A stretch of 41,825 nt of DNA from Deltaproteobacteria bacterium (GTDB taxonomy: Bacteria > Desulfobacterota > GWC2-55-46): positions 1 through 41,825 of the forward strand of contig JADLDY010000017.1 in NCBI GenBank assembly GCA_020846435.1. Direction: 5' to 3'. The translations under genes and the position numbers were made by a program. Numbering within the stretch: the stretch's first letter is position 1; the number at the start of each line of letters is the position of its first letter. This document shows, in pieces, positions 2,077 through 14,509 of this stretch. The notes beneath the pieces were generated by a model that saw nothing but the letters and a program-made list of their open reading frames with translations, searched no databases and was not told where the DNA came from.

Positions 2077-3516
2077 CTAACCCTTCTCGAACTGGTGTAT
2101 TATCTTCTTTGCCACGACTTCGCCGTACCTTATGCTGTCGCTTATGCCGATGCCGTGATAGGCGCTCCCAGCGAGGTAGAGCCCTGGTATCGAAGCGACC
2201 CGCTCGTCGATCCATTTTACCCGCTCGTCATGGCCAATCGTGTACTGCGGCATGGATTTGCGCCAACGGAAGACCCTTGTGAGGACAGGCTCAGCCTCTA
2301 TGCCCATTATGTCCCTGAGCTCCTCTTTCACCATCTTCACCATCGCGGCGTCGTCGAGATCGACAAGCTCGGCGTTCTTCGACCCGCCGACAAAACAGCG
2401 GATGAGGACGGAGTCGTCAGGGGCGCGGTGGCTGAACTTCACGGAAGTCCAGGTAGCCGCCATTATCCGCCTCTTTTCGACCTTCGGCACGACAAAACCA
2501 AAGCCGTTCAAGGGGTGCTTTATGTCCTTTTTCCTGAAGGCTATCGAGACGGTCGCGGTGGAGACATAGGGGATCGTCCTGAGCTTGTCTGAAAGACCCT
2601 GGTCGACTCCGGCAAGGAGGTTGGAGGCCGCCCATGCAGGGGCCGCGACCACAAGAGCGTCCGCGTCCATCTTCTCGCCGCCTTCGAGCGTGACAAGATA
2701 GCGGCCGTCCTTTTTCTCTATCGTGCTCACGGCCGCGCCGGTACGAAGAGAGGTCCTGTCCATCTTGGAGAGCCTCGAAGTGAGGGTGTCTATAAGCTCG
2801 GAGAGGCCGTCCCTCATGGTCATGAACATGGTTATCCTGGGCTTTTGTCCGCCGGTGGCGCCTGCGGCAGGCTTTCTGGCCTTGTGCATGGACGCCATCT
2901 TCCTGACCATGCCCTTGATGAGGCTGCCGCTGTCCTCCTCGAGCTGGACGAACTTCGGGAAGCTCGCGCGCACAGACATGGTCTCAGGGTCTCCTGCGTG
3001 CACGCCGGCGACAAGCGGCTCGGCAATTTTATCGAGCGCCTCTTTCCCGAGGCGGCGCCTTACGAACTCGCCGAGGCTCTCGTCCGACGAATCTTTCTTT
3101 TTAGGGATGAACAGCTCCATGGCCATGCGTATCTTGCCGGGCCATGAGATGAGCGATGATGTCGCAAGCGGGAGTATCCTGGTGGGTATCATGAGGATGA
3201 CCCCCTCGGGCAGGACATGGAGCTTGCCGCCAGAGAGCACGAAGGTCTTCCTGTTCTTGTCGTTCGTCGGCAGGAGCTTGTCGGCAAGCCCGAGCCTCTT
3301 GATGAGTTCCATAGCCCAGGGCTTCTCGGAGAGGAAGCAGTCCGGGCCGCCCTCTATGAGGAAGCCCTCTGAGCGCTCGGTCCTTATGTTCCCTCCGAAC
3401 CGCTCACCCCGCTCAAGGAGGACTACCTCGAACTCCTCGTTCGAGCGGTGCTCGCGCAGGCTCCAGACGGCAGAAAGGCCGGCTATGCCTCCCCCGATTA
3501 CGACTACCCTTTTCAT
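2077..3516 (-). CDS. hemY: Oxygen-dependent-type protoporphyrinogen oxidase HemY
   Basis: This 479-residue FAD flavoprotein oxidises protoporphyrinogen IX to protoporphyrin IX, the penultimate step of the protoporphyrin branch of haem synthesis. The N-terminus has the dinucleotide-binding motif VVVIGGGIAGLSA followed by an acidic strand end (VVLLERGERFGGNIRTE). The C-terminus has the family's closing FAD-contact region (IPGLYLAGSAYHGIGISD). Length is normal. Its start overlaps the hemH stop by 4 nt (ATGA), so it is translationally coupled and last in hemE-hemH-hemY. The family classically uses O2 as acceptor. In an anaerobe it may use another acceptor, or the cell may meet oxygen; the sequence does not say. 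Confidence 0.93.
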   Translation of the reverse strand: MKRVVVIGGGIAGLSAVWSLREHRSNEEFEVVLLERGERFGGNIRTERSEGFLIEGGPDCFLSEKPWAMELIKRLGLADKLLPTNDKNRKTFVLSGGKLHVLPEGVILMIPTRILPLATSSLISWPGKIRMAMELFIPKKKDSSDESLGEFVRRRLGKEALDKIAEPLVAGVHAGDPETMSVRASFPKFVQLEEDSGSLIKGMVRKMASMHKARKPAAGATGGQKPRITMFMTMRDGLSELIDTLTSRLSKMDRTSLRTGAAVSTIEKKDGRYLVTLEGGEKMDADALVVAAPAWAASNLLAGVDQGLSDKLRTIPYVSTATVSIAFRKKDIKHPLNGFGFVVPKVEKRRIMAATWTSVKFSHRAPDDSVLIRCFVGGSKNAELVDLDDAAMVKMVKEELRDIMGIEAEPVLTRVFRWRKSMPQYTIGHDERVKWIDERVASIPGLYLAGSAYHGIGISDSIRYGEVVAKKIIHQFEKG

Positions 3517-4442
3517 TGCTTCTTTTCCGCCACCTTCTTGAGCATGGACGAGAGAAGGCTTACGAACCTGGGGTCCGTGTTAAGAGAGGGCGTGCGCCTG
3601 AACTCGACGCCCGTTTCAGCGGCAATTGACTTGAACAGTATATCGATGTCATAGAGCGTCTCGACATGGTCGGCGGCAAAGCCTATCGGGACGATTATGA
3701 CCCTTTTTTTGCCTCTTCTCGCCGCCTCTTTTATGATGTCCTCGGTATCCGGGCCTATCCACTGCCTGGGGCCCGCGCCCTTTGACTGGAAAGAGACCTT
3801 GAAGTCGGCCTTGCCTATTTTTTCCATCACGAACTCGGAGGCCTGCTTGACTACCATCTCATACGGGTCGCCCTCTACGGCCACGGCAGGGAGGGAGTGC
3901 GAGCTGAATATGATGAGAGAATCCTTCCTGTCGATGCCGGAAAGCTCTTTTTCGATGTTCTCGGCGATAAGGTCCCTGAACGGCCTTTCCATGTGCCAGC
4001 TGCCGAGCATCTCGACAGACGGCCCGCCATGGACTCCGACGGCCGCCTCGAGGTCTTCTATGTACGCTCCTGTGGCAACGAGCGAAAGGAAGGGCGACAT
4101 GATGACCGCTATGGCCTCGTCAACGCCGTCGGCCTTCATCTTACCTACGGTCTCGGCTATATAGGGGTGCCAGTAGCGCATGCCCACGTACGCCCTGTAC
4201 TCGTACCTGGCCTCGGGGTCGGCGTTGAGAATATCGGTGACAGCCTTGCCCTGAGCGAGGGTTATCTCCAGCAGGGGCGATTTGCCGCCTATGAGCCTGT
4301 ATCTTTCCCTGGCCTTGTCAATCAGCTCTTGCGTGGGTATCCTGCCCTTCAAGACATTCTTTACGAATGGCTCGACGCTCTCTATGGAATCCGCTCCTCC
4401 GAAAGCCAGCAGAAGTATGCCCTTTACAGGTTTGCCGCTCAT
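3513..4442 (-). CDS. hemH: Ferrochelatase HemH
   Basis: This 309-residue enzyme inserts Fe2+ into protoporphyrin IX. It begins with the usual GILLLAFGGADS strand, carries the ferrochelatase SSHSLP motif with its conserved histidine, and has the KGAGPRQWIGPDTED segment matching the family's GPWL.P.T signature. Length is typical of bacterial HemH. A good Shine-Dalgarno (AAGGAGA) lies 6 nt before the ATG at 4442. It is the middle gene of hemE-hemH-hemY, 42 bp after hemE, and overlaps hemY by 4 nt. No transmembrane helix is visible. Confidence 0.94.
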   Translation of the reverse strand: MSGKPVKGILLLAFGGADSIESVEPFVKNVLKGRIPTQELIDKARERYRLIGGKSPLLEITLAQGKAVTDILNADPEARYEYRAYVGMRYWHPYIAETVGKMKADGVDEAIAVIMSPFLSLVATGAYIEDLEAAVGVHGGPSVEMLGSWHMERPFRDLIAENIEKELSGIDRKDSLIIFSSHSLPAVAVEGDPYEMVVKQASEFVMEKIGKADFKVSFQSKGAGPRQWIGPDTEDIIKEAARRGKKRVIIVPIGFAADHVETLYDIDILFKSIAAETGVEFRRTPSLNTDPRFVSLLSSMLKKVAEKKQ

Positions 4443-4484
4443 CTTGTCTCCTTGAGATTTTTTACGAACGCCGGAATCAAGGCG

Positions 4485-5516
4485 TCACTTGGCGCTGAAC
4501 TCGTGTACCGCGTCGATGACCGCCCTTACATTGTCGACCGGGGTGCCGAGGATTATGCCGTGGCCCAGGTTGAAGATGTGGCCGGGCCTGCCCTCTGCCA
4601 TGTCGATTATCTCCTTGACCCTCTTCCTTATCTCGGAAGTGGGGCCGAAGAGCACGACCGGGTCGAGGTTGCCCTGTATGGCCTTGTTATGGCCGATGAT
4701 CTTCCAGGCGTCGTCGAGCCTTACCTTCCAGTCGACGCCTATGACATCTCCGCCGCCCTGGGTAACGAGGTCAAGATAGGTGCCGGTGTTGGTGCCGAAG
4801 TTTATTACAGGCACGCCTTTTTTGCTGACGGTCTCTATGATCCTCTTCGTGTACGGGAGAGCGAACTTCTTGAAGTCGTCAGGCCCCAGGCACCCTACCC
4901 AGCTGTCAAAGAGCTGGACTACCTGCGCGCCTGCGGCTATCTGGGCCTCGAGATAGACGATCACGACTTCGGATATCTTGTCCATGAGGATCTTCCAGCC
5001 CTCATGGTCCGAGTACATGAGCTTTTTGGTGTTGATGTAGTTCTTGGAGCCCTCGCCCTCTATGATGTAGCTCGCCAGCGTAAACGGCGCGCCGGAGAAG
5101 CCTATGAGTGGGACCTTTCCGTTGAGCTCCCTTTTCACCATCTTTATGGCTTCCAGAAGGTACGGGACATCCTGCTCTGGCTTTATGACCTTGACCGCGT
5201 CTATGTCCTTCCTTGTCCTCACGGGGTTGCTTATCGAGGGCCCCTCGCCCTTGGTGAACTCAAGGTTTATGCCCATACCGTCAAGCGGCAGGAGTATGTC
5301 GGCGAATATTATGGCCGCGTCCAGGTCGAACGCCTTTATCGGCTGGAGAGTGACTTCGCAGGCTATCTCCGGCTTTCTGCACATCTCGAGGAAGGAGTGC
5401 TTCTCCCTTATGGCCATGTACTCTTTCATGTAACGGCCTGCCTGGCGCATGAGCCACACAGGGGTGAACCCGGCCTTTTCCCTGCGGCATGCCTTCAAGA
5501 ACGCGTCGTTTGACAT
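4485..5516 (-). CDS. hemE: Uroporphyrinogen decarboxylase HemE
   Basis: This 343-residue cytosolic enzyme removes the four acetate carboxylates of uroporphyrinogen III to give coproporphyrinogen III. The signature PVWLMRQAGRYM near the N-terminus contains the substrate-binding arginines. GFSGAPFTLASY and the C-terminal FNLGHGI are also diagnostic. A strong Shine-Dalgarno (GAAGGAGAG) precedes the ATG. It is the first gene of hemE-hemH-hemY and is divergent from the cytochrome locus across a 346-bp gap. Together the two units link haem supply with heavy haem demand, although shared regulation is not shown. Confidence 0.95.
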   Translation of the reverse strand: MSNDAFLKACRREKAGFTPVWLMRQAGRYMKEYMAIREKHSFLEMCRKPEIACEVTLQPIKAFDLDAAIIFADILLPLDGMGINLEFTKGEGPSISNPVRTRKDIDAVKVIKPEQDVPYLLEAIKMVKRELNGKVPLIGFSGAPFTLASYIIEGEGSKNYINTKKLMYSDHEGWKILMDKISEVVIVYLEAQIAAGAQVVQLFDSWVGCLGPDDFKKFALPYTKRIIETVSKKGVPVINFGTNTGTYLDLVTQGGGDVIGVDWKVRLDDAWKIIGHNKAIQGNLDPVVLFGPTSEIRKRVKEIIDMAEGRPGHIFNLGHGIILGTPVDNVRAVIDAVHEFSAK

Positions 5517-5692: not shown

Positions 5693-5728
5693 AAATTTGA
5701 ACCGGCCTCAGGCCCGCTTCACAAATTT
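5693..5728. promoter_or_regulatory. Inverted repeat over the -35 region, possible operator
   Basis: AAATTTG (5693-5699) is complementary to CAAATTT (5722-5728), with a smaller inverted repeat GGCCT/AGGCC (5704-5714) between them. The right arm overlaps the -35 hexamer at 5718-5723. This is a plausible repressor site for the cytochrome operon, but the two palindromes are not exactly concentric, and no regulator family is recognised. Confidence 0.3.
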
Positions 5729-5746
5729 TTCAGGCTGCGCTATAAT
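5718..5746 (+). promoter_or_regulatory. Sigma-70-type promoter of the cytochrome locus
   Basis: TTCACA (5718-5723), a 17-nt spacer and a perfect TATAAT (5741-5746). It gives a leader of about 110 nt before the first gene at 5863. Confidence 0.65.
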
Positions 5747-5862: not shown

Positions 5863-6462
5863 ATGAAAACCAAATCTTCGCGCCTCCTCGAGAGGGCCTT
5901 TAAAATCAGGTTCGGCCTCAAGCTCTGCCTCTTTACCCTGCTCGGCGGGGCAGGCCTCGTGGCGCTCCTGTACCTTTCCCTGGCAAGGACCCTCGGGGAG
6001 AGCTACGGAGAGGCCATCTACACGATCTACGAGCTCAAGATAAAGGTCCTCCCCCTCATATTCGCCTCTTTCTACTCGGTCCTGATACTCGGCCTCGTTA
6101 CCGTCGCGATCGCCGCCATCTCAATGCTTTTCTCGCACAGGATAGCCGGCCCCCTGTACCGGATGGAGAAAAACCTCGAGACAATAGCCTCAGGCGACCT
6201 TACGGTCGCTACGCGCTTCAGGGGACAGGACCAGCTGACTCTCCTCGCTGACGAGCTGAACGCCATGGTGAGGTCTTTGAACCACGCCACCCGCTCGACC
6301 GCTGAATCCCTCGAGGGGCTCCGTAAAGCCGAAGAAGCCCTGAAGGCCCTCCTTAACATGGACGACCCGCCCGAGAAAGAGCTGAAAGAGGCCATCGCGG
6401 ATGTCCGGGCGGCCGTCGAAGGCGTTAAAAGATCCGCTTCCTTCATAAGGGGCAGGCAGTGA
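5863..6462 (+). CDS. Small HAMP-only membrane protein (first of two)
   Basis: The 199-residue protein has two transmembrane helices (about 18-43 and 62-88) separated by a short periplasmic loop. A HAMP domain follows (about 89-140, starting SHRIAGPLYRMEKNL), then a charged helical tail of about 55 residues. There is no methyl-accepting, kinase, GGDEF or other output domain, and the loop is too short for a normal ligand-binding domain. The 7-haem cytochrome gene starts inside its stop codon, so the two are translationally coupled and possibly interact. It resembles a truncated chemoreceptor or kinase, or a membrane adaptor. Function is unknown. A similar protein is encoded at 7414. Confidence 0.85.
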   Translation: MKTKSSRLLERAFKIRFGLKLCLFTLLGGAGLVALLYLSLARTLGESYGEAIYTIYELKIKVLPLIFASFYSVLILGLVTVAIAAISMLFSHRIAGPLYRMEKNLETIASGDLTVATRFRGQDQLTLLADELNAMVRSLNHATRSTAESLEGLRKAEEALKALLNMDDPPEKELKEAIADVRAAVEGVKRSASFIRGRQ

Positions 6463-7265
6463 CCGGCCGCGCCGTGGCCGTGATACTTGCCCTTGTCCTG
6501 GCAATGGCCGCCGCGGCCATCTCCTTTTCCCAGTGGACGAGCTACCATGACTTTGAGAACAGGTGCCTGGACTGCCACATATCCAGGCCCTCTTCAGACA
6601 GCGACCCTGTGACCTTCTCAAAGGACATAAACCTGATGTGCGCCTCCTGCCACAAAAGCGAACAGGAGCTCTCGCACCCGGTCGGCATGAAGCCGTCTAT
6701 GAAAGTGCCGCAGGCCATGCCCCTTGACTGGAAGGGAGAGGTGACCTGCCTTACCTGCCATACGGCCCACAAGCGGGGGTTTGGCGGGTTTCACCTGAGG
6801 ACTGCGGCCTCAGGCGAGGGTTTTTGCGTGATGTGCCACGGCGACATGGACGAGGAGCTCCACAAGGTGTCGGTCGGCTCGGCGCACATCGGGGAGACCT
6901 CCACGCAGAGCTCTATCGGGTGGGAGCCGTACGAGGGGCTCGACGACCTGTCCATAAGGTGCCTGGCCTGCCATGACGCCGTCACGGCGAACGACTCGCT
7001 CGTTGAAAACCTCTCGATAAGGCGCGAGCTCTTCCACAACAGCAACAGTATAGGAGTGAGCCACCCCATCGGCGTCTCATACTTCGAGACGCGCCGCAGA
7101 TACAGGGGCGCGTACAGGCCTGTGGAAAAGCTCCCGAAGGAGATAAAGCTCTTCAACGGCATAGTCGGGTGCGCCACATGCCACAACCCGTACTCCAAGC
7201 GCCACGACGAGCTGGTGATGAGCAACGAGGGCTCTGCCCTGTGCCTGGGCTGCCATATAAAATGA
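6459..7265 (+). CDS. Seven-haem c-type cytochrome, membrane-anchored or secreted
   Basis: This 268-residue protein starts with GTG at 6459, overlapping the previous stop; AGGGG lies 7 nt upstream. An N-terminal hydrophobic helix (about 4-22) lacks a clear cleavage site and may be an anchor. Seven CXXCH motifs follow: CLDCH, CASCH, CLTCH, CVMCH, CLACH, CATCH and CLGCH. The CASCH...HPVGM...CLTCHTAH...CVMCH pattern is of the doubled-CXXCH (Paired_CXXCH_1) type. Additional histidines (HPVGM, HPIGV) could be distal ligands. It should transfer electrons in the periplasm, possibly from the inner membrane towards the outer surface. The coupled HAMP protein before it is an unusual partner. Confidence 0.88.
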   Translation: MTGRAVAVILALVLAMAAAAISFSQWTSYHDFENRCLDCHISRPSSDSDPVTFSKDINLMCASCHKSEQELSHPVGMKPSMKVPQAMPLDWKGEVTCLTCHTAHKRGFGGFHLRTAASGEGFCVMCHGDMDEELHKVSVGSAHIGETSTQSSIGWEPYEGLDDLSIRCLACHDAVTANDSLVENLSIRRELFHNSNSIGVSHPIGVSYFETRRRYRGAYRPVEKLPKEIKLFNGIVGCATCHNPYSKRHDELVMSNEGSALCLGCHIK

Positions 7266-7351
7266 AACAGTGCCCTTAAACGAAAAAGCAACCGGGTATT
7301 TTCACGGGGCACGGCCGCGAAACACGTAAATACAATTTAACTCGGCTTTAA

Positions 7352-7379
7352 TTGCCATTTAATAACAGCGTATTATGAT
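7352..7379 (+). promoter_or_regulatory. Candidate internal promoter before the second HAMP gene
   Basis: TTGCCA (7352-7357), a 16-nt spacer and TATGAT (7374-7379), in a 148-bp gap. It would let the genes from 7414 onward be expressed apart from the first two. Confidence 0.4.
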
Positions 7380-7384
7380 AGGCA

Positions 7385-7410
7385 CCTCCTGAAGGGGCCT
7401 GTCCAGGAGG
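7385..7410 (+). promoter_or_regulatory. Hairpin that pairs with the Shine-Dalgarno sequence of the next gene
   Basis: CCTCCTG (7385-7391) is perfectly complementary to CAGGAGG (7404-7410), with a 12-nt loop. The right arm is the very strong AGGAGG ribosome binding site of the gene at 7414. If transcription starts near 7386, as the promoter at 7352-7379 predicts, the left arm would lie at the extreme 5' end of the mRNA. Confidence 0.45.
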
Positions 7411-7413
7411 AGC

Positions 7414-8004
7414 ATGAAAAGCGAGTGGCTGCCCAGGTACAGCAGGAGACGGAAGTTTTTCATCAAGAAAAGCCTCCAGGGAAGGTTCATCGCAGGGTTC
7501 ACCCTGGCGGTCTTTCTCGGGCTTCTCGCCAACCTCCTTGTCTCTTATTTTTTAATTGACAGGGGACTTGATGAGGAGTTATATAAAATTCATCTAAAGA
7601 TAAGGACCACTTCCGGGATCGCGGTCCCTATCCTCGTAAAGCTGGGCGCGGTCACGGTCCCGTCGATACTCATTGTCTCAGGGGCAATAGGCTTTTTCCT
7701 CACGCGCAGCATAGAGCTGCCGCTCATTCAGTTCAGGGACGCCATACAGAGCAGGGCCAGAGGTGATTTTTCAACAGACCTTCCAAAAAACATGCCGCCG
7801 GAACTGGCGACAGCCTTTGACAACATGTCCCGCTCCCTGGGGGCTGTCTTTGTATCATTCAAGAAATACGCTATACTGTTCGATAAGGAGTCTCAACGGC
7901 TGACAAAGCCGCAGGCGGCCGGGGACGAGCTTAAAAGAGCACTTGAGGCCATAACAATGGCGAGGGAGAGCATCTCGCTGGAAATCTCAAAGTTCAAGGT
8001 CTGA
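7414..8004 (+). CDS. Small HAMP-only membrane protein (second of two)
   Basis: The 196-residue protein has the same layout as the one at 5863. A basic N-terminus is followed by a transmembrane helix (about 27-47), a short loop, a second helix (about 75-97), HAMP (about 98-150, TRSIELPLIQFRDAI) and a helical tail without an output domain. Sequence identity between the two is low, so they are structural rather than close paralogues. The PQQ-like propeller gene follows 8 bp later. It may be a membrane scaffold or signal adaptor for the cytochrome system; this is inferred from position only. Translation may be controlled by the hairpin covering its Shine-Dalgarno. Confidence 0.83.
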   Translation: MKSEWLPRYSRRRKFFIKKSLQGRFIAGFTLAVFLGLLANLLVSYFLIDRGLDEELYKIHLKIRTTSGIAVPILVKLGAVTVPSILIVSGAIGFFLTRSIELPLIQFRDAIQSRARGDFSTDLPKNMPPELATAFDNMSRSLGAVFVSFKKYAILFDKESQRLTKPQAAGDELKRALEAITMARESISLEISKFKV

Positions 8005-8012
8005 GAGGAACT

Positions 8013-9146
8013 ATGCAGCAGGCGAAAGCAACCATCACGAAAGCCCTCGCGGCCGCGGCCTTTTCCCTGGCCATCATCCCGGCAACGAGCGCTCTGGCCG
8101 ACTGGCCGATGTTCCTGAAAAACGAAAAACACCTGACTTACGCTGAAAAAGCCCCTCTTCCGCCCCTTTCCCTCAAATGGCGGGCAAGGACCGGAGGCCC
8201 TGTCTACTCTTCCCCGGTCGTGCAGAACAACACTGTCTACGCGGGCTCCTACGACACAAACCTCTATTCAATAAACGCCCGGACCGGAGAGGTCGCCTGG
8301 AAGTTCCAGACTGGCGGCGAGATATTCTCGACCCCGGCGGTCTCTGGTGGAACGGTCTACTTCGGCTCAAGGGACGGCTTTGTATACGCCGTCGACGCCA
8401 AAACAGGCTCTCTCATCTGGAAGTACGAAACAGAGGGGCCTGTCGTGACCTCCCCGGTCGTCGCCGAAGGCCGCGTCCTCATCGGCTCGAAAGACCTGTA
8501 TCTGTACGCGCTCAACGCCAAAACAGGCGCGAGAGAATGGCGCAACAGGCTGCCTGACTACGAAAAATACAGCGGCGTCTACTCCTCGCCAGCATACTCT
8601 GACGGGGCGGTCTACTACGCCGGTAAGAACGGCATCCTCTACTCGTCCGCGGCCTCAACAGGCGGAAGGAACTGGTCGCAGAGGTTCGAGTCGGCCGTCT
8701 ACTCCTCGCCGGTCATAAAGGACGGCGTCCTCTACATCTCCTCGTACAACAGGACGCTTTACGCCATCGACACCAGGACCGGCAAGACGAAATGGAGAAA
8801 GAACCTCGAGAACAACCTCTCCTACGCGACCCCGGCAGTCTACGGCGACAAGCTCTTCCTCGGCTTCAAGAGCGGGCACCTTAAAGCCTACAACACCAAG
8901 GACGGGTCTGAAGCGGCCAGCTACAAGTTCCCCGACGAGATAAACTCCACTCCCGCGGTCACCGCCAACGGCTACCTTTACGTCGGGTGCGATGACGGAG
9001 GCCTGTACGCGGTAGACGCCAGGAACGGGGCCATAGTATGGAAATACATGACCGAAAAGGCGATACAATCGTCTCCGGCCGTTGTTGACAACGCCGTATA
9101 TGTAGGCTCTGAAGACGGCTCCATCTACGCCTTCGAGGCCAGATAA
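8013..9146 (+). CDS. Secreted PQQ-like beta-propeller protein
   Basis: The 377-residue protein has a clear signal peptide ending near SALA-DWP (about residue 29) and then repeats of about 40 residues. Each carries SSP.V...VY.GS.D..LYA.D..TG...W, the PQQ/BamB-like blade. I count eight blades, the last closed by the N-terminal strand LSLKWRART. No catalytic features of quinoprotein dehydrogenases and no CXXCH are evident, so it is probably a binding or assembly scaffold like BamB and not an enzyme. It sits between the second HAMP gene and a tetrahaem cytochrome. A role in assembling or docking the cytochromes is an inference. Confidence 0.85.
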   Translation: MQQAKATITKALAAAAFSLAIIPATSALADWPMFLKNEKHLTYAEKAPLPPLSLKWRARTGGPVYSSPVVQNNTVYAGSYDTNLYSINARTGEVAWKFQTGGEIFSTPAVSGGTVYFGSRDGFVYAVDAKTGSLIWKYETEGPVVTSPVVAEGRVLIGSKDLYLYALNAKTGAREWRNRLPDYEKYSGVYSSPAYSDGAVYYAGKNGILYSSAASTGGRNWSQRFESAVYSSPVIKDGVLYISSYNRTLYAIDTRTGKTKWRKNLENNLSYATPAVYGDKLFLGFKSGHLKAYNTKDGSEAASYKFPDEINSTPAVTANGYLYVGCDDGGLYAVDARNGAIVWKYMTEKAIQSSPAVVDNAVYVGSEDGSIYAFEAR

Positions 9147-9199
9147 GCACCACAATCAACGGACGCCCCTGCGGGCTCCTCAGCAAAGAAGGTAGTCCA

Positions 9200-9802
9200 A
9201 TGCCAAGGAAAACAGCTTTCATAACGGCGCTTATGACAGGAGTCATGGCTCTGGCCACTGCAGGCGCGCTTCATGCCGCGGAAGCGCCAAAAGCAGCGGT
9301 TCAGCCGCCCCCTCCTCCCCCTTACGAAAGGAGCGAGGCGATCCTTTCAGCGATAAACCCCCACAACCAGATAGGGGATACCGGAGAAGTCCTCTGGGGC
9401 ACATGCGTCGTCTGCCACAAGGGTGTGCCTGACATAAAGGCCAAATCGATAAAGGACGTGACCCTTTATTACGAGAACAACCCTGACCAGCTCTGCCGCA
9501 ACTGCCACACCGTCAAGAAGCACCCTGGAAGCGAGGGCATAAGCGTCACGATGAGCGGCTACACCGCCCCGGACCACCTCGTGGTCCCCTCAAAGACCGT
9601 GACCAACAACATGAGGCTTTCCCTCAAGGAAATACCCATGATACTGCCCCTTGACCCCAAGACCGGCAAGCTTTTGTGCGTCACATGCCATAACCCGCAC
9701 GAGCGCGGGCTCCTGCCCGGCAGGCCTGACTGGGGTGGCGATTACAGCATGAGACTCAGGTCAGCGGGCCTCGACATATGCCAGTACTGCCACAGGAAAT
9801 AG
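9200..9802 (+). CDS. Tetrahaem c-type cytochrome
   Basis: This 200-residue protein has a signal peptide (cleavage near ALHAAEA, about residue 27), a short proline-rich spacer and four CXXCH motifs: CVVCH, CRNCH, CVTCH and CQYCH. LCVTCHNPHERG...LDICQYCH at the C-terminus is the doubled-CXXCH pattern. It is predicted to be a periplasmic or surface electron carrier. The NHL lipoprotein gene starts 10 bp after its stop. It is similar in build to the tetrahaem protein at 13131. Confidence 0.88.
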   Translation: MPRKTAFITALMTGVMALATAGALHAAEAPKAAVQPPPPPPYERSEAILSAINPHNQIGDTGEVLWGTCVVCHKGVPDIKAKSIKDVTLYYENNPDQLCRNCHTVKKHPGSEGISVTMSGYTAPDHLVVPSKTVTNNMRLSLKEIPMILPLDPKTGKLLCVTCHNPHERGLLPGRPDWGGDYSMRLRSAGLDICQYCHRK

Positions 9803-9812
9803 GCAAACGCCC

Positions 9813-10895
9813 ATGAAAACCTCTGAGCAAGCGAGCGCTGGCACAGAAAAAAACAGAGTCTTGGCGCGTCTTGCCACTGCGGCCGCGGCCGCCTCTGTCG
9901 CCCTTATGCTCTTCGGCTGCTCTTCGGCGCCTGTCAAGGCGGCCCCTGAGCTCCTGAGCCCGCAGACACCTCTAATCTGGCCATCTCCGCCGGAGCCGGC
10001 GAAGATATCCTACGTAGCCGCCATCAAAAAACCAGAGGACATCGGCGCGAACAAGGGATTTTTCAAGAGGATCGCCGAGTTCGTCCTCGGGGCCTCTTCC
10101 GATGACATAATAAAGCCTTACGGCGTCACTGTCGACGCAGCGGGCCGCCTCATAGTCACCGACACCTCATTCAAGAGGGTGCACCTGTACGACCTCAAGA
10201 AAAAAGAGTACTCTTTCATAGACAAGCCGGGCAAGGAGGAGTTCTCGACCCCGATAGCCTCGGCAACAGACTCTGAGAACAGGATCTTTGTCACCGACTC
10301 GACCGCGGGCAGGGTCTTCATATTCAGCCCCAGGGGCAAGTTCATAAAGAGCTTCGAGGCGGGAGCGAGGCCCACCGGCATAGCCATAAACAAGGCTGCC
10401 GGGGTGGTCTACGTCTCTGACACCGGAGCCCATGTCATCAACATGTTCAACCTCGACGGCAAGCCTGCCGGCTCCTTCGGCAAGCACGGCGTCCTCGAAG
10501 GCGAGTTCAACTACCCGGTAGACATATCGATCGACCGCGAAGGCATGGTCTATGTCGTCGACGCCATGAACTTCAGGGTCCAGATATTCAGCAGGGACGG
10601 CCGCTTCAACCACGCCTTCGGCAGCCACGGAGACGGCACAGGCGACTTCGGCAGACCAAAGGGCATAGCAATCGACAGGGACGGCCACATCTATGTCGCC
10701 GACGCCTACTTTGACACGGTGCAGATATTCGACAGGCAGGGCAACTTCCTCCTGAACTTCGGCTCGCTCGGCAGGACGGCCGGCAAGTTCTGGCTCCCGA
10801 GCGGCCTTTTCGTGGACGAAGGCAACAAAATCTACGTAGGCGACTCATACAACAGCAGAGTACAGGTCTTCGAGTACCTCGGGGAAGGCTCTTAG
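9813..10895 (+). CDS. NHL-repeat beta-propeller lipoprotein
   Basis: The 360-residue protein has a long basic-hydrophobic leader ending in a lipobox LMLFGC, so Cys36 is the predicted lipidated residue. SSA follows rather than Asp, which favours the outer membrane. From about residue 95 there are six repeats of 40-47 residues (for example YPVDISIDREGMVYVVDA, then V.IF...G), the NHL pattern, enough for a complete six-bladed propeller. It contains no haem motif. It is immediately followed by the 11-haem cytochrome. NHL propellers usually bind partners, so a docking or secretion role for the surface cytochrome is a reasonable inference. Confidence 0.88.
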   Translation: MKTSEQASAGTEKNRVLARLATAAAAASVALMLFGCSSAPVKAAPELLSPQTPLIWPSPPEPAKISYVAAIKKPEDIGANKGFFKRIAEFVLGASSDDIIKPYGVTVDAAGRLIVTDTSFKRVHLYDLKKKEYSFIDKPGKEEFSTPIASATDSENRIFVTDSTAGRVFIFSPRGKFIKSFEAGARPTGIAINKAAGVVYVSDTGAHVINMFNLDGKPAGSFGKHGVLEGEFNYPVDISIDREGMVYVVDAMNFRVQIFSRDGRFNHAFGSHGDGTGDFGRPKGIAIDRDGHIYVADAYFDTVQIFDRQGNFLLNFGSLGRTAGKFWLPSGLFVDEGNKIYVGDSYNSRVQVFEYLGEGS

Positions 10896-10924
10896 CTCGG
10901 AAAGATGCTTCAAGGACGGTGAAT

Positions 10925-13102
10925 ATGGGCAAAAGACAAGGGAAAAAAAGCCGCCGCAAGGGGCGCGGGCCGTCAATAGCGGCCATCGGCGTACTCGGGC
11001 TGGGCATCTGCCTGACGGCCGCGGGGTACGCCCTGGCGACTGTAGCGGCGACAAAACATAACTTCAGCTCCCTTTCGACCGCCGACGTAAAGAGCTCTGA
11101 GACATCCGAGATATGCGTCTTTTGCCACACGCCGCACAACTCGAACCCGGCGGGCCCGGTCTGGAACAAGCAGGACACCGGCTCGACCTACAACGTCTAT
11201 GAGAGCCAGACGCTGGCGGCCACCATGAGCCCGAACGCGCCGACCCTCGGCCAGCCGTCAGGGCCTTCAAAGCTCTGCCTCGCCTGCCATGACGGCACGA
11301 TAGCCATAGGCTCGGCCCTCAACAAGCCGGGCAAGGGCGGCCAGAACTCCGCCACCCCGCTGGATGTGACAGGCACCGGCGTATCGGGCGGCAAGATAAG
11401 CTCGACCTCGACGGCCTACATAGGCACCGACCTCAAGGACGACCACCCGATATCGTTCGACTATTCGCAGTCCTATCCGTCGAACATCGAAATAAAGGAC
11501 AACCTCACTCTCCCGGAGGCTGTAAAGCTCGACTCCGGAAAGATACAGTGCACAAGCTGCCACGATCCCCACGGCACTCTGTTCCCCAAGTTCCTTGTGG
11601 CTACAATCGAGAACGGCGGCCTGTGCCAGGCCTGCCACGACAAGAGGTACTGGACCACGAACCCGGCCGTGCACTCGACTTCGACCGCAGTATGGAACGA
11701 AGCAGGGGTGAACCCCTGGCACGAGGACATGGGGGCCGCCGGATGGACAGACGACACGCCGGCCCTCCAGAGCTGCCTGGCCTGCCACAGCTCGCACAAG
11801 GGCTCGGCCGGAACCATGCTCCTTAAAGGGACCAACCCCGGCACGATGCTCGTCGAGGCGGAAGAATGGACCTGCCTCAACTGCCACAACGGGAACGCCG
11901 CCTCAAAGAACGTAGAGGCGCAGTTCAACTACATGTACAAGCACGACGTCAAGGGGACCTGGGGCCTGCATACGGCATCGAGGGGCGCGGTCGGAGAACC
12001 GGCGAGGGAGTCAGCGGCCAACCTCGGCACCAACAGGCACGCCGAATGCGCTGACTGCCATAACGGCCACGGAGCGAAAGAAGGCAGCCACGCCATTGGC
12101 GGCGCCAACGGCAACATCATAGGCGCCAACGTGCTCGGGAGCTGGGGCGTCAAGCCGTCGTGGGGCCTGGCCGGGTCAGCTTCGACCTCCTACACCGCCG
12201 TCGACTTCACGAGCCTCATCCCCGGGACCGACAACCTCGAAGGATACCTGTGCGCCAAGTGCCACTCGTACTACGCTTACGGAGTCATGCCGCCGAACGT
12301 GCCCTCGGGCAACGCCAACGGCTCGCTCGTGGTGCAGTCCGACATCACGGCCGACATGAACATAAACAACATGGGCTTCCACCCGGTATTCGCCCAGGGC
12401 AAGAACACGCCTCCTTCTACCGCGAACCCCAACTGGCCGGCCAACGGGCTCGGTCTGACCAACACCTTCAGGTACCTCGACTTCGCCGGCGGCACGAGGG
12501 AAGGCTTCTTCAACATGACCCACGACAGCACCACCACCTGCTCTGACTGCCACGGCTCGTCTGTCCTTAACGACCCCAAGGGCGCGCACGGCTCGGACGA
12601 AAGGTGGATTTTGAGAAGGAACGAGACCGGCGTCGGCACGCTCCAGAACTTCTGCTACAACTGCCACAGGAGGGACGTGTACGGCGATGAAGGGTTCATC
12701 GGCCCGAACGCGAACTACTCCAGGGTCTACCACCCGGTCGACGGCCTGGGAGTTGCCTCGCCCTTCTACCAGACAGGAACCAATACCGGCAACAACGGCA
12801 ACAAGTTCGGCAACCTGTGCCTCACATGCCACGGCGGAGCGTATGATTCGGTGAACAACCAGATGAAGGGCATACACGGCTCCAACGCCGCCGCCGGTCC
12901 CTCAGGCGACCCGCTCGGGTACAGGCTCATGAACGGAGCCTGCGTGGAATCGCACACAAGGGCCACGACGCTTGTCGGCGCCACGATGACCTTCAGGACC
13001 GTGACCCCGGCGACCGACCCGGTCTGCAACAACAACTTCTCCGGCTTCACCGGGAACGCGGCGTACTACGCCTGCGACAACATAAGCGACTGCTCCTTCT
13101 GA
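10925..13102 (+). CDS. Large 11-haem c-type cytochrome, probably extracellular
   Basis: A 725-residue protein. The ATG at 10925 is preferred over the GTG at 10919 because AAGGA (10912-10916) is 8 nt from the ATG but only 2 nt from the GTG. A basic N-terminus and hydrophobic helix form a signal peptide ending near GYALA. There are eleven CXXCH motifs (CVFCH, CLACH, CTSCH, CQACH, CLACH, CLNCH, CADCH, CAKCH, CSDCH, CYNCH, CLTCH), spaced by long Gly/Asn/Ser/Thr-rich linkers. A late CVESH resembles a haem site that lost its second cysteine. The C-terminal 40 residues have three more cysteines and may be disulfide-bonded. The low-lysine, Asn/Gly-rich makeup resembles outer-surface cytochromes of metal reducers. 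Surface display or filament formation is possible but not shown. Confidence 0.88.
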   Translation: MGKRQGKKSRRKGRGPSIAAIGVLGLGICLTAAGYALATVAATKHNFSSLSTADVKSSETSEICVFCHTPHNSNPAGPVWNKQDTGSTYNVYESQTLAATMSPNAPTLGQPSGPSKLCLACHDGTIAIGSALNKPGKGGQNSATPLDVTGTGVSGGKISSTSTAYIGTDLKDDHPISFDYSQSYPSNIEIKDNLTLPEAVKLDSGKIQCTSCHDPHGTLFPKFLVATIENGGLCQACHDKRYWTTNPAVHSTSTAVWNEAGVNPWHEDMGAAGWTDDTPALQSCLACHSSHKGSAGTMLLKGTNPGTMLVEAEEWTCLNCHNGNAASKNVEAQFNYMYKHDVKGTWGLHTASRGAVGEPARESAANLGTNRHAECADCHNGHGAKEGSHAIGGANGNIIGANVLGSWGVKPSWGLAGSASTSYTAVDFTSLIPGTDNLEGYLCAKCHSYYAYGVMPPNVPSGNANGSLVVQSDITADMNINNMGFHPVFAQGKNTPPSTANPNWPANGLGLTNTFRYLDFAGGTREGFFNMTHDSTTTCSDCHGSSVLNDPKGAHGSDERWILRRNETGVGTLQNFCYNCHRRDVYGDEGFIGPNANYSRVYHPVDGLGVASPFYQTGTNTGNNGNKFGNLCLTCHGGAYDSVNNQMKGIHGSNAAAGPSGDPLGYRLMNGACVESHTRATTLVGATMTFRTVTPATDPVCNNNFSGFTGNAAYYACDNISDCSF

Positions 13103-13130
13103 TGGCAGCCCGTGAGCAAGGACGCGTAAG

Positions 13131-13562
13131 ATGAGCAAACCTTTTGCCATGTCAGCGCTTTTCATATCGGCGACTGCGCTTGCCATTATCCTGGCAGGGC
13201 CCGTTGTCAGTGACAGGTGCGCCGCCGATGAGATCGGGGTCCAGAAACAGAACATAAACCCCCACGACTTCTCAAAACAGGCGCTGTGCTCAGTGTGCCA
13301 CACGAATGAGCCGCCTGCCCTGCTCCTCGACCCGGTCACGACGTGCGTGAAGTGCCACAACGGCAACATAGGCAACCACCCGGTCACCAACCACCCGATG
13401 GGACAGATGACCAAGATAAAGATACCTTCTTACCTGCCGCTGACCGAAGACGGCCAGATGGTCTGCTACACGTGCCACGACCCTCACAAGAAGACGAAGC
13501 ACCTGAAGATGCTGAGGGTCGACTACTTCAGGCTCTGCCTGGCGTGCCACGTCGGGTACTGA
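13131..13562 (+). CDS. Small tetrahaem c-type cytochrome
   Basis: The 143-residue protein has a signal peptide (about residues 1-30, ending near RCAADE) and four CXXCH motifs: CSVCH, CVKCH, CYTCH and CLACH. The histidine-rich stretch HPVTNHPMG probably supplies distal haem ligands. VCYTCHDPH...LCLACH is the doubled-CXXCH arrangement. It is predicted to be a periplasmic electron shuttle. It lies 28 bp after the 11-haem gene and 51 bp before the hexahaem gene, in the same transcription unit. Confidence 0.87.
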   Translation: MSKPFAMSALFISATALAIILAGPVVSDRCAADEIGVQKQNINPHDFSKQALCSVCHTNEPPALLLDPVTTCVKCHNGNIGNHPVTNHPMGQMTKIKIPSYLPLTEDGQMVCYTCHDPHKKTKHLKMLRVDYFRLCLACHVGY

Positions 13563-13613
13563 GGCGCGAGGAAAGAACAGAGATTTTTCACAGCCATACA
13601 AAGGAGGTTCACA

Positions 13614-14453
13614 GTGCTTAGCAACAGGCGTTTCAGCGTAAAGATAACTCTGGCGGCGGCGTTTGCCGCAGGCCTTTTATTGAGCACCGGGGCGATCGCT
13701 GGCTCCGGCGTCACATGGGAGACGGACCTTCGCAGGGCCAAGAACCCGGACACCTACGGCAACGTCGTCATGGACAGGGCGACCAGGGACTCGAAGGAAG
13801 TAAAGCCGGTCGTCTTCGCCCACTGGACGCACAGGTCAAAGTACTCCTGCAAGGCGTGCCACACGGACCTGGGCTTCAGCTTCAAGGGGCGCACGACCGA
13901 GATAAAGCAGTCTGACATTACCGCCGGCAAGTTCTGCGGCAGCTGTCACGACGGCAAGACATCCTTCGGGGTCAACGAATGCGACAAGTGCCATTCGTAC
14001 GGGACACCCAGGGCCAACGGCATCGCTGAGAAGCTCAAGGACCTGCCGAAGGACGCCTTCGGCAACAAGGTCGACTGGGCAAAGGCCGTGAAAGACGGCA
14101 AGATAAAGCCTGCCGCGAACCACGACGGCACGGGAGAGCTCAAGGCAGTTGAACAGGACATAATCATACCGGTCACCAAGTTCACGCCGCACCCGCCGGA
14201 CGTGATGTTCCCGCACACTGCGCACACCGTGCAGCTCGACTGCACTTCGTGCCACGAGTCGATATTCAAGCAGAAAAAGGGCGGCAACCCCGAGATGAAC
14301 ATGATGAAGATAATCTCGGGACAGTACTGCGGCACATGCCACGCCAAGGTCTCCTTCCCCATAGACGACTGCTTCAGGTGCCACTCGCAGCCCGCGGCCG
14401 TGATAAAAGAGGACGAGAAGAAAGACGAAAAAAAGGACGAGAAACAGAAGTAG
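13614..14453 (+). CDS. Hexahaem cytochrome made of two c7-type triheme modules
   Basis: The 279-residue protein starts at GTG 13614, with AAGGAGG 6 nt upstream. After a signal peptide (ending near AIAGSG) come two modules of three CXXCH each: CKACH/CGSCH/CDKCH and CTSCH/CGTCH/CFRCH. Each module begins with an F.HWTH- or FPHTAH-like distal histidine, as in the cytochrome c7 triheme family. A linker of about 70 residues separates the modules. The C-terminus is a short Lys/Glu/Asp tail (KKDEKKDEK). It is predicted to carry electrons in the periplasm and is the last gene before a strong terminator. Confidence 0.88.
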   Translation: MLSNRRFSVKITLAAAFAAGLLLSTGAIAGSGVTWETDLRRAKNPDTYGNVVMDRATRDSKEVKPVVFAHWTHRSKYSCKACHTDLGFSFKGRTTEIKQSDITAGKFCGSCHDGKTSFGVNECDKCHSYGTPRANGIAEKLKDLPKDAFGNKVDWAKAVKDGKIKPAANHDGTGELKAVEQDIIIPVTKFTPHPPDVMFPHTAHTVQLDCTSCHESIFKQKKGGNPEMNMMKIISGQYCGTCHAKVSFPIDDCFRCHSQPAAVIKEDEKKDEKKDEKQK

Positions 14454-14477
14454 AGTCCTGAAAATAGAAATAAAGGA

Positions 14478-14509
14478 AAGGCAGGTAGAGATACCTGCCT
14501 TTTTCTTTT
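14478..14509 (+). terminator. Intrinsic terminator of the cytochrome locus
   Basis: AAGGCAGGTA (14478-14487) pairs perfectly with TACCTGCCTT (14492-14501) around a GAGA loop, followed by a T-rich run (TTTCTTTT). It lies 24 bp after the hexahaem stop. Confidence 0.9.

Follow-up and report, generated by a model that had tools for sequence, protein, structure and literature searches.

The DNA analysed here, hereafter the window, is a stretch of 41,825 nucleotides (contig JADLDY010000017.1, assembly GCA_020846435.1) from the 2.4 Mb genome of a Deltaproteobacteria bacterium, and it carries at positions 5863-14453 a multihaem cytochrome locus of nine co-directional open reading frames (ORFs) on the plus strand, g1 to g9 (Table 1). 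Five of the products (g2, g5, g7, g8 and g9) are cytochromes with 7, 4, 11, 4 and 6 CXXCH motifs, respectively, 32 in total; the others are two membrane proteins of the HAMP type (g1 and g3) and two beta-propellers (g4 and g6). Positions, common direction and haem counts all agree with a first-pass annotation made from the sequence alone, which had also described an eight-bladed PQQ-like protein and a six-bladed NHL lipoprotein; eight and six repeats can be read from the two sequences, and Pfam supports PQQ/BamB-like repeats in g4 and NHL in g6. The two HAMP stubs of that annotation are borne out for g1, which passes the Pfam cut-off, whereas the HAMP match of g3 falls below it. Its good promoter and strong terminator are both consensus matches; the promoter scan returned six sites against 3.4 +/- 1.9 expected, only mildly above chance.

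Table 1. Features of the nine-gene locus and its immediate surroundings (window coordinates; TM, transmembrane).
Feature	Description	Position	Strand	Basis
g1	Two-TM protein with HAMP domain and short coiled tail, without output domain	5863-6462	+	PF00672, 28.2 bits, over cut-off
g2	Heptahaem cytochrome anchored by a single N-terminal TM segment	6459-7265	+	7 CXXCH; TM-like segment 1-27
g3	Second HAMP-type two-TM protein, without output domain	7414-8004	+	HAMP E = 0.004, below cut-off
g4	PQQ-type beta-propeller of 8 repeats, periplasmic, lacking a lipobox	8013-9146	+	PF13360/PF13570; 8 SP-type repeats read from sequence
g5	Periplasmic tetrahaem cytochrome	9200-9802	+	4 CXXCH, exactly 4 invariant free His
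g6	NHL 6-blade lipoprotein	9813-10895	+	PF01436, 2.6e-33; lipobox LFGC read from sequence
g7	Undecahaem cytochrome, OmcE-homologous residues 24-242 followed by 7-haem part	10919-13102	+	11 CXXCH
g8	Periplasmic tetrahaem cytochrome	13131-13562	+	4 CXXCH, 4 invariant free His
g9	Hexahaem cytochrome, two c7-type trihaem domains	13614-14453	+	TIGR04257 twice, 119 bits (cut-off 40); 3ov0, E = 1.4e-32
Promoter-like site	TTCACA-17-TATAAT, about 116 nt upstream of g1	5718-5746	+	Consensus scan, 11/12 positions
Terminator-like hairpin	11-pair stem with T-rich tail, after g9	14477-14502		Consensus match
hemE	Divergent neighbour, context only, outside the system	4485-5516	-	TIGR01464, over cut-off

When 59 related genomes were searched for g7, the 11-haem protein turned up in the majority of the family's members, a group that includes the metagenome-assembled genomes Deltaproteobacteria bacterium GWA2_54_12 and GWB2_55_19, and 20 loci were compared. 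The nine-gene order, which the first-pass annotation had proposed to look for in other genomes, is conserved: order and haem counts are identical in 15 of the 20 loci, that is, in all with complete loci (in one of these, L048, a haem of g2 lies in a stretch of Ns and g4 is partial), and in the remaining loci contig ends cut the cluster or g1-g3 are not nearby (L065). The cluster usually lies between hemE and a CBS/polyA-polymerase gene, with most loci keeping the hemE and/or CCA-type flank. Recurrence of the same order and haem counts in 15 relatives goes beyond chance: the locus is real and conserved, and probably important to its hosts. Viral contigs yielded no relative.

Residues 24-242 of g7, which contain haems 1-4, align with PDB entry 7tfs, which we take to be OmcE of Geobacter sulfurreducens, from residue 10 of that protein to its last (E = 9.4e-23), and with the 16-chain entry 9yuq (E = 1e-20). 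The match to OmcE is thus nearly full-length, with four haems and four distal histidines; unlike OmcE, g7 continues with seven further haems after this domain. The distal histidines H47, H73, H176 and H218 (motifs TKH, CHTPH, DHP and CHDPH) are unchanged in all 19 orthologues, the 11 CXXCH motifs are likewise invariant, and the protein has four invariant free histidines in the four-haem first domain and nine in the seven-haem remainder. The C-terminal 467 residues gave no match in the PDB, and each of the 11 haems has its aligned counterpart in the 11-haem proteins of ~550-590 residues from other families. g7 lacks a lipobox, and in the genomes searched it is single-copy at full length. Cytochromes with 8-9 haems related to its C-terminal part occur in sister families (L100-L104 and L106); in some of these loci (L102, L103 and L106) they lie beside a PQQ propeller and ResB-like membrane proteins resembling cytochrome c biogenesis, constituting another cytochrome-propeller locus.

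The window genome also encodes OmcE-like paralogues outside the window, one on contig C36 (5445-6437; 7tfs, E = 6e-16) and another whose gene is split across contigs C1 and C30. The part before the break, on C1, encodes a trihaem c7 lipoprotein (43% to g9) together with an NHL protein (40% to g6). After it, on C30, come genes for a PPIC/SurA-type isomerase and a monohaem cytochrome, for two formylglycine-generating-enzyme-like (FGE-like) proteins, the first of them dihaem, that flank a spermidine-synthase-like protein, and then for a 646-residue beta-barrel and a TPR protein. G008, a complete genome, has this second operon unbroken (L134), as does L136, and from this synteny C1 would adjoin C30. 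Contigs C1 and C7 (L069 start, L068 end) share their terminal 127 bp, which fall within two OmcE-like genes; the assembly was probably interrupted there by locally identical copies, with recent duplication or gene conversion as possible origins. With the initial barrel profile (A3), the family itself gave no clear homologue, and matches were obtained with the family's own barrel, encoded beside an OmcE-like gene in G001. Among 45 genomes, 25 contain both g7 and the barrel, one g7 only, four the barrel only, and 15 neither, a co-occurrence (Fisher test, p = 1.6e-7, without phylogenetic correction) that speaks for a link between the two loci. The MtrB-type barrel model TIGR03509 had no match in the window genome, nor in its control search. 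In all second operons read, a PilW/Tgl-like TPR protein follows the barrel gene (L109 4327-5142, L133 7822-8643) and is possibly an assembly factor for it. FGE-like proteins, one of them with two haem motifs, lie inside nanowire operons (L133 2324-3343 and 5025-5816; L094 3635-4438), and one locus (L071, G019:C53:18000-37000) contains five tandem OmcE-like genes of 327-334 residues with five CXXCH each at 7295-12432.

The two halves are physically linked in other genomes. In G054, a member of the same class, the OmcE-like operon (L099) with its barrel is followed by g1, g2, g3, g4 and g5 on one contig and one strand, g2 and g3 being separated by three short unrelated ORFs; the contig stops after g5, and g6-g9 begin another. 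In other families of the phylum, the g2-type heptahaem and 11-haem genes lie within a single cluster, exemplified by L173 with the order OmcE, NHL, 5-haem lipoprotein, barrel, HAMP, 7-haem, HAMP, NHL, 11-haem. The barrel-to-11-haem part of this order is found in L175, the same order minus a detected first HAMP gene in L174, and the same order with ORFs merged or missed in the six-frame list in L177 and L178, while L092, L094 and L181 have the same gene set with the HAMP set placed after the 11-haem gene. Judged by gene content, the window cluster is an L173-type module with g4, g5, g8 and g9 added and with the OmcE/barrel half located elsewhere.

This inventory resembles that of the Uet complex of Tenderiales and some Gallionella, which as summarised in PMC10734462 (citing Eddie 2022) comprises the undecahaem cytochrome UetJ, the surface tetrahaem UetA, the peptidyl-prolyl isomerase (PPIase) UetB, the barrel UetC, the NHL proteins UetHI and the trihaem cytochromes UetDEG. 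Set against that summary, UetJ has its counterpart in g7 with its 11 CXXCH; UetA in the OmcE-like, putative surface cytochromes encoded on C36 and C1/C30; UetB and UetC in the PPIC/SurA-like protein and the 646-residue barrel of C30; and UetHI in g6 and the NHL protein of the C1 operon. The three trihaem cytochromes UetDEG compare with three trihaem c7 domains in two proteins, one domain on C1 and two in g9. Whereas Uet is described as one cluster, the window genome has two loci (nearly one in G054), and its system extends beyond the summarised Uet set by the HAMP-7-haem-HAMP genes, the PQQ propeller and two tetrahaem proteins. The system is Uet-like by its inventory of component kinds. All this makes it probable that the window locus supplies one of the two halves of a Uet-like/OmcE-type cytochrome-nanowire system encoded at two loci and that it represents, rather than a new kind of conduit, the Uet/OmcE nanowire system in a split and extended form. 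The first-pass annotation had suggested that it may be a self-contained conduit or a route to a large surface cytochrome, in a combination it did not recognise as a described pathway. Electron transfer, probably leading to a surface cytochrome system, is upheld, while self-containment is not supported, the same genome having the second operon; the products largely match the summarised Uet inventory, whereas for the split arrangement and the HAMP-7-haem-HAMP module no description was found in the literature searched, most subscription journals lying outside its reach.

At the inner-membrane end, g1 orthologues adjoin g2 even in distant families, g3 is a conserved partner of g2, and g2 orthologues, which have eight well conserved free histidines for seven haems, are present in several other families. 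The HAMP proteins may clamp g2 or sense its state. b-type cytochromes were considered for g1 and g3 and rejected, the only conserved histidines being 92 and 141 in g1 and 60 in g3, with no pair within membrane helices. A profile search for the NapC/CymA quinol dehydrogenase PF03264 found none in the window genome and did find the E. coli control, so that the statement of the first-pass annotation that the cluster lacks a CymA-type quinol oxidase or b-type cytochrome is confirmed and, for PF03264, extends genome-wide. Contig C6 of the same genome carries an NrfD/FeS set beside genes that read as Rieske protein, cytochrome b and cytochrome c1.

In the mechanism we propose, quinol oxidoreductases encoded elsewhere would pass electrons from the quinone pool to the heptahaem g2, anchored in the membrane and held by the HAMP pair, and g5, g8 and the double-trihaem g9 would carry them across the periplasm to g7. 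g7 would be located at the outer membrane close to the barrel encoded in the second operon, its OmcE-like domain joining the OmcE-like filament by the subunit-to-subunit interlocking geometry, and the propellers g4 and g6 would serve as scaffold or assembly factors in place of any role as a barrel. In OmcE and OmcS filaments, a histidine of one subunit ligates a haem of the next (PMC9473688). We tentatively propose, as a possibility less likely than not, that g7 is a base or tip adaptor capping an OmcE-type nanowire through such inter-subunit ligation, with its seven further haems linking to the barrel, and that the HAMP-7-haem-HAMP set is an undescribed inner-membrane entry module. A recent review (PMC12307469) calls the anchoring of nanowires to the cell and their electron supply unresolved, and possible tip proteins were left aside in PMC9473688; g7, single-copy, beginning with a complete OmcE-type domain and having neighbours that are retained in several families, is a concrete candidate for the missing anchor piece, as is the HAMP-7-haem-HAMP set for the inner-membrane end of the nanowire system.

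Polymerisation of g7 itself, as the 11-haem subunit of a second, different nanowire with head-to-tail contacts through its OmcE-like domain, would be compatible with the retention of all four distal histidines in that domain and with the nine invariant free histidines of the 7-haem part, a surplus over its own haems. We nevertheless consider it unlikely, since g7 is single-copy whereas OmcE-like genes are duplicated and tandem in the genomes searched, a bulky 7-haem extension would have to fit between the OmcE-like contacts, and a separate OmcE-like gene co-occurs. Scarcely credible is the suggestion of the first-pass annotation that the cluster works as a conduit complete in itself and without a barrel, with propellers in place of the porin. 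That annotation was right that none of the nine genes encodes a porin of the porin-cytochrome conduit (PCC) type, and the combination of two propellers with neither barrel nor quinol oxidase in the cluster speaks for the idea; however, the barrel operon co-occurs in the window genome, is contiguous with the cluster in G054 and lies inside it in the one-cluster versions of other families, and the propeller OscD accompanies Geobacter nanowires together with proposed secretion proteins (PMC13194489). Because the barrel is encoded at another locus, the propellers do not replace it. Highly improbable, too, is a locus that mainly assembles or charges a periplasmic electron store (a capacitor), with the likeness of g7 to OmcE due to ancestry only and involving no filament contact: g5, g8 and g9 are cytochromes of periplasmic type and g7 has no lipobox, but the 11-haem, NHL, barrel and OmcE-type genes are linked in several families.

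Several observations weigh against the proposal of a split nanowire system. The Fisher test on g7 and the barrel takes no account of phylogeny, and the AlphaFold (AF2) model of g7 has a mean predicted local distance difference test (pLDDT) score of 31. g4, g5, g8 and g9 are missing from the one-cluster versions of other families, so that their nanowire link comes from the conserved operon and, for g4 and g5, from G054. HAMP-7-haem-HAMP sets without OmcE exist on their own (L171 and L172), and the module is therefore not exclusive to nanowires. Lastly, reverse flow, that is, electron uptake, is also possible, outward flow leading to a metal or a partner. The window genome had no match to dsrA over the cut-off, nor did any control genome; Dsr-based sulfate reduction is thus not indicated, and flow could be outward or inward. 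As a separate observation, the HAMP-7-haem-HAMP genes of L171, L172, L179, L180 and L182 stand by themselves or next to cytochromes with 5 and 11/13 haems, and OmcE and NHL genes are missing there, which marks the module as one of broader use.

Among the remaining products, g4 was rejected as BamB (TIGR03300, 193 bits against a cut-off of 285; no lipobox) and as a PQQ dehydrogenase (TIGR03075, 104 bits against 480), and g6 is one of two NHL proteins of the wider system, the second being encoded in the OmcE-like operon. Pfam assigns the cytochromes of the locus to c7, c3 and paired-CXXCH families, and the ligand counts of g2, g5, g7 and g8 fit real bis-His cytochromes. In g9, six haems face only four invariant free histidines. 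The entry it matches, 3ov0, is presumably a c7 polymer of the GSU1996 type, of which each domain has one His/Met haem; His/Met haems of this type would explain the surplus of haems over free histidines in g9. GSU1996-type polymers have four trihaem domains, and g9 has two.

The proteins of the Geobacter osc (omcS companion) cluster reportedly comprise a PPIase, channel-like proteins and a propeller, OscD. This cluster serves OmcS, with OscH assigned to folding, OscEFG to secretion and OscD to morphology (PMC13194489, quoting Shen 2025). Like the window system, it combines a nanowire cytochrome with proposed folding, secretion and morphology proteins and further multihaem cytochromes; it differs in being of the OmcS and not the OmcE type, and no undecahaem protein or HAMP-7-haem-HAMP module was found for it in the literature searched. 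A locus of Geoalkalibacter ferrihydriticus (Ga0056053_02426-02431; PMC12016550) resembles the window system in bringing together at one site a homologue of OmcE, a pair of NHL proteins and a putative quinol-linked cytochrome, but has MtoA-like cytochromes, and 11-haem and HAMP genes are not described for it.

Within the window locus, the genes from g1 to g9 are separated by -4, 148, 8, 53, 10, 23, 28 and 51 bp, and g9 from the next gene by 125 bp. A second promoter-like site lies in the 148-bp gap between g2 and g3, so that two transcripts are possible. On its other flank the locus is bordered by a CBS/DHH/polyA-polymerase gene. The haem synthesis genes hemG, hemH and hemE (TIGR00562, TIGR00109 and TIGR01464, all over cut-off) occupy 2077-5516 on the minus strand, divergent to the 32-haem locus.

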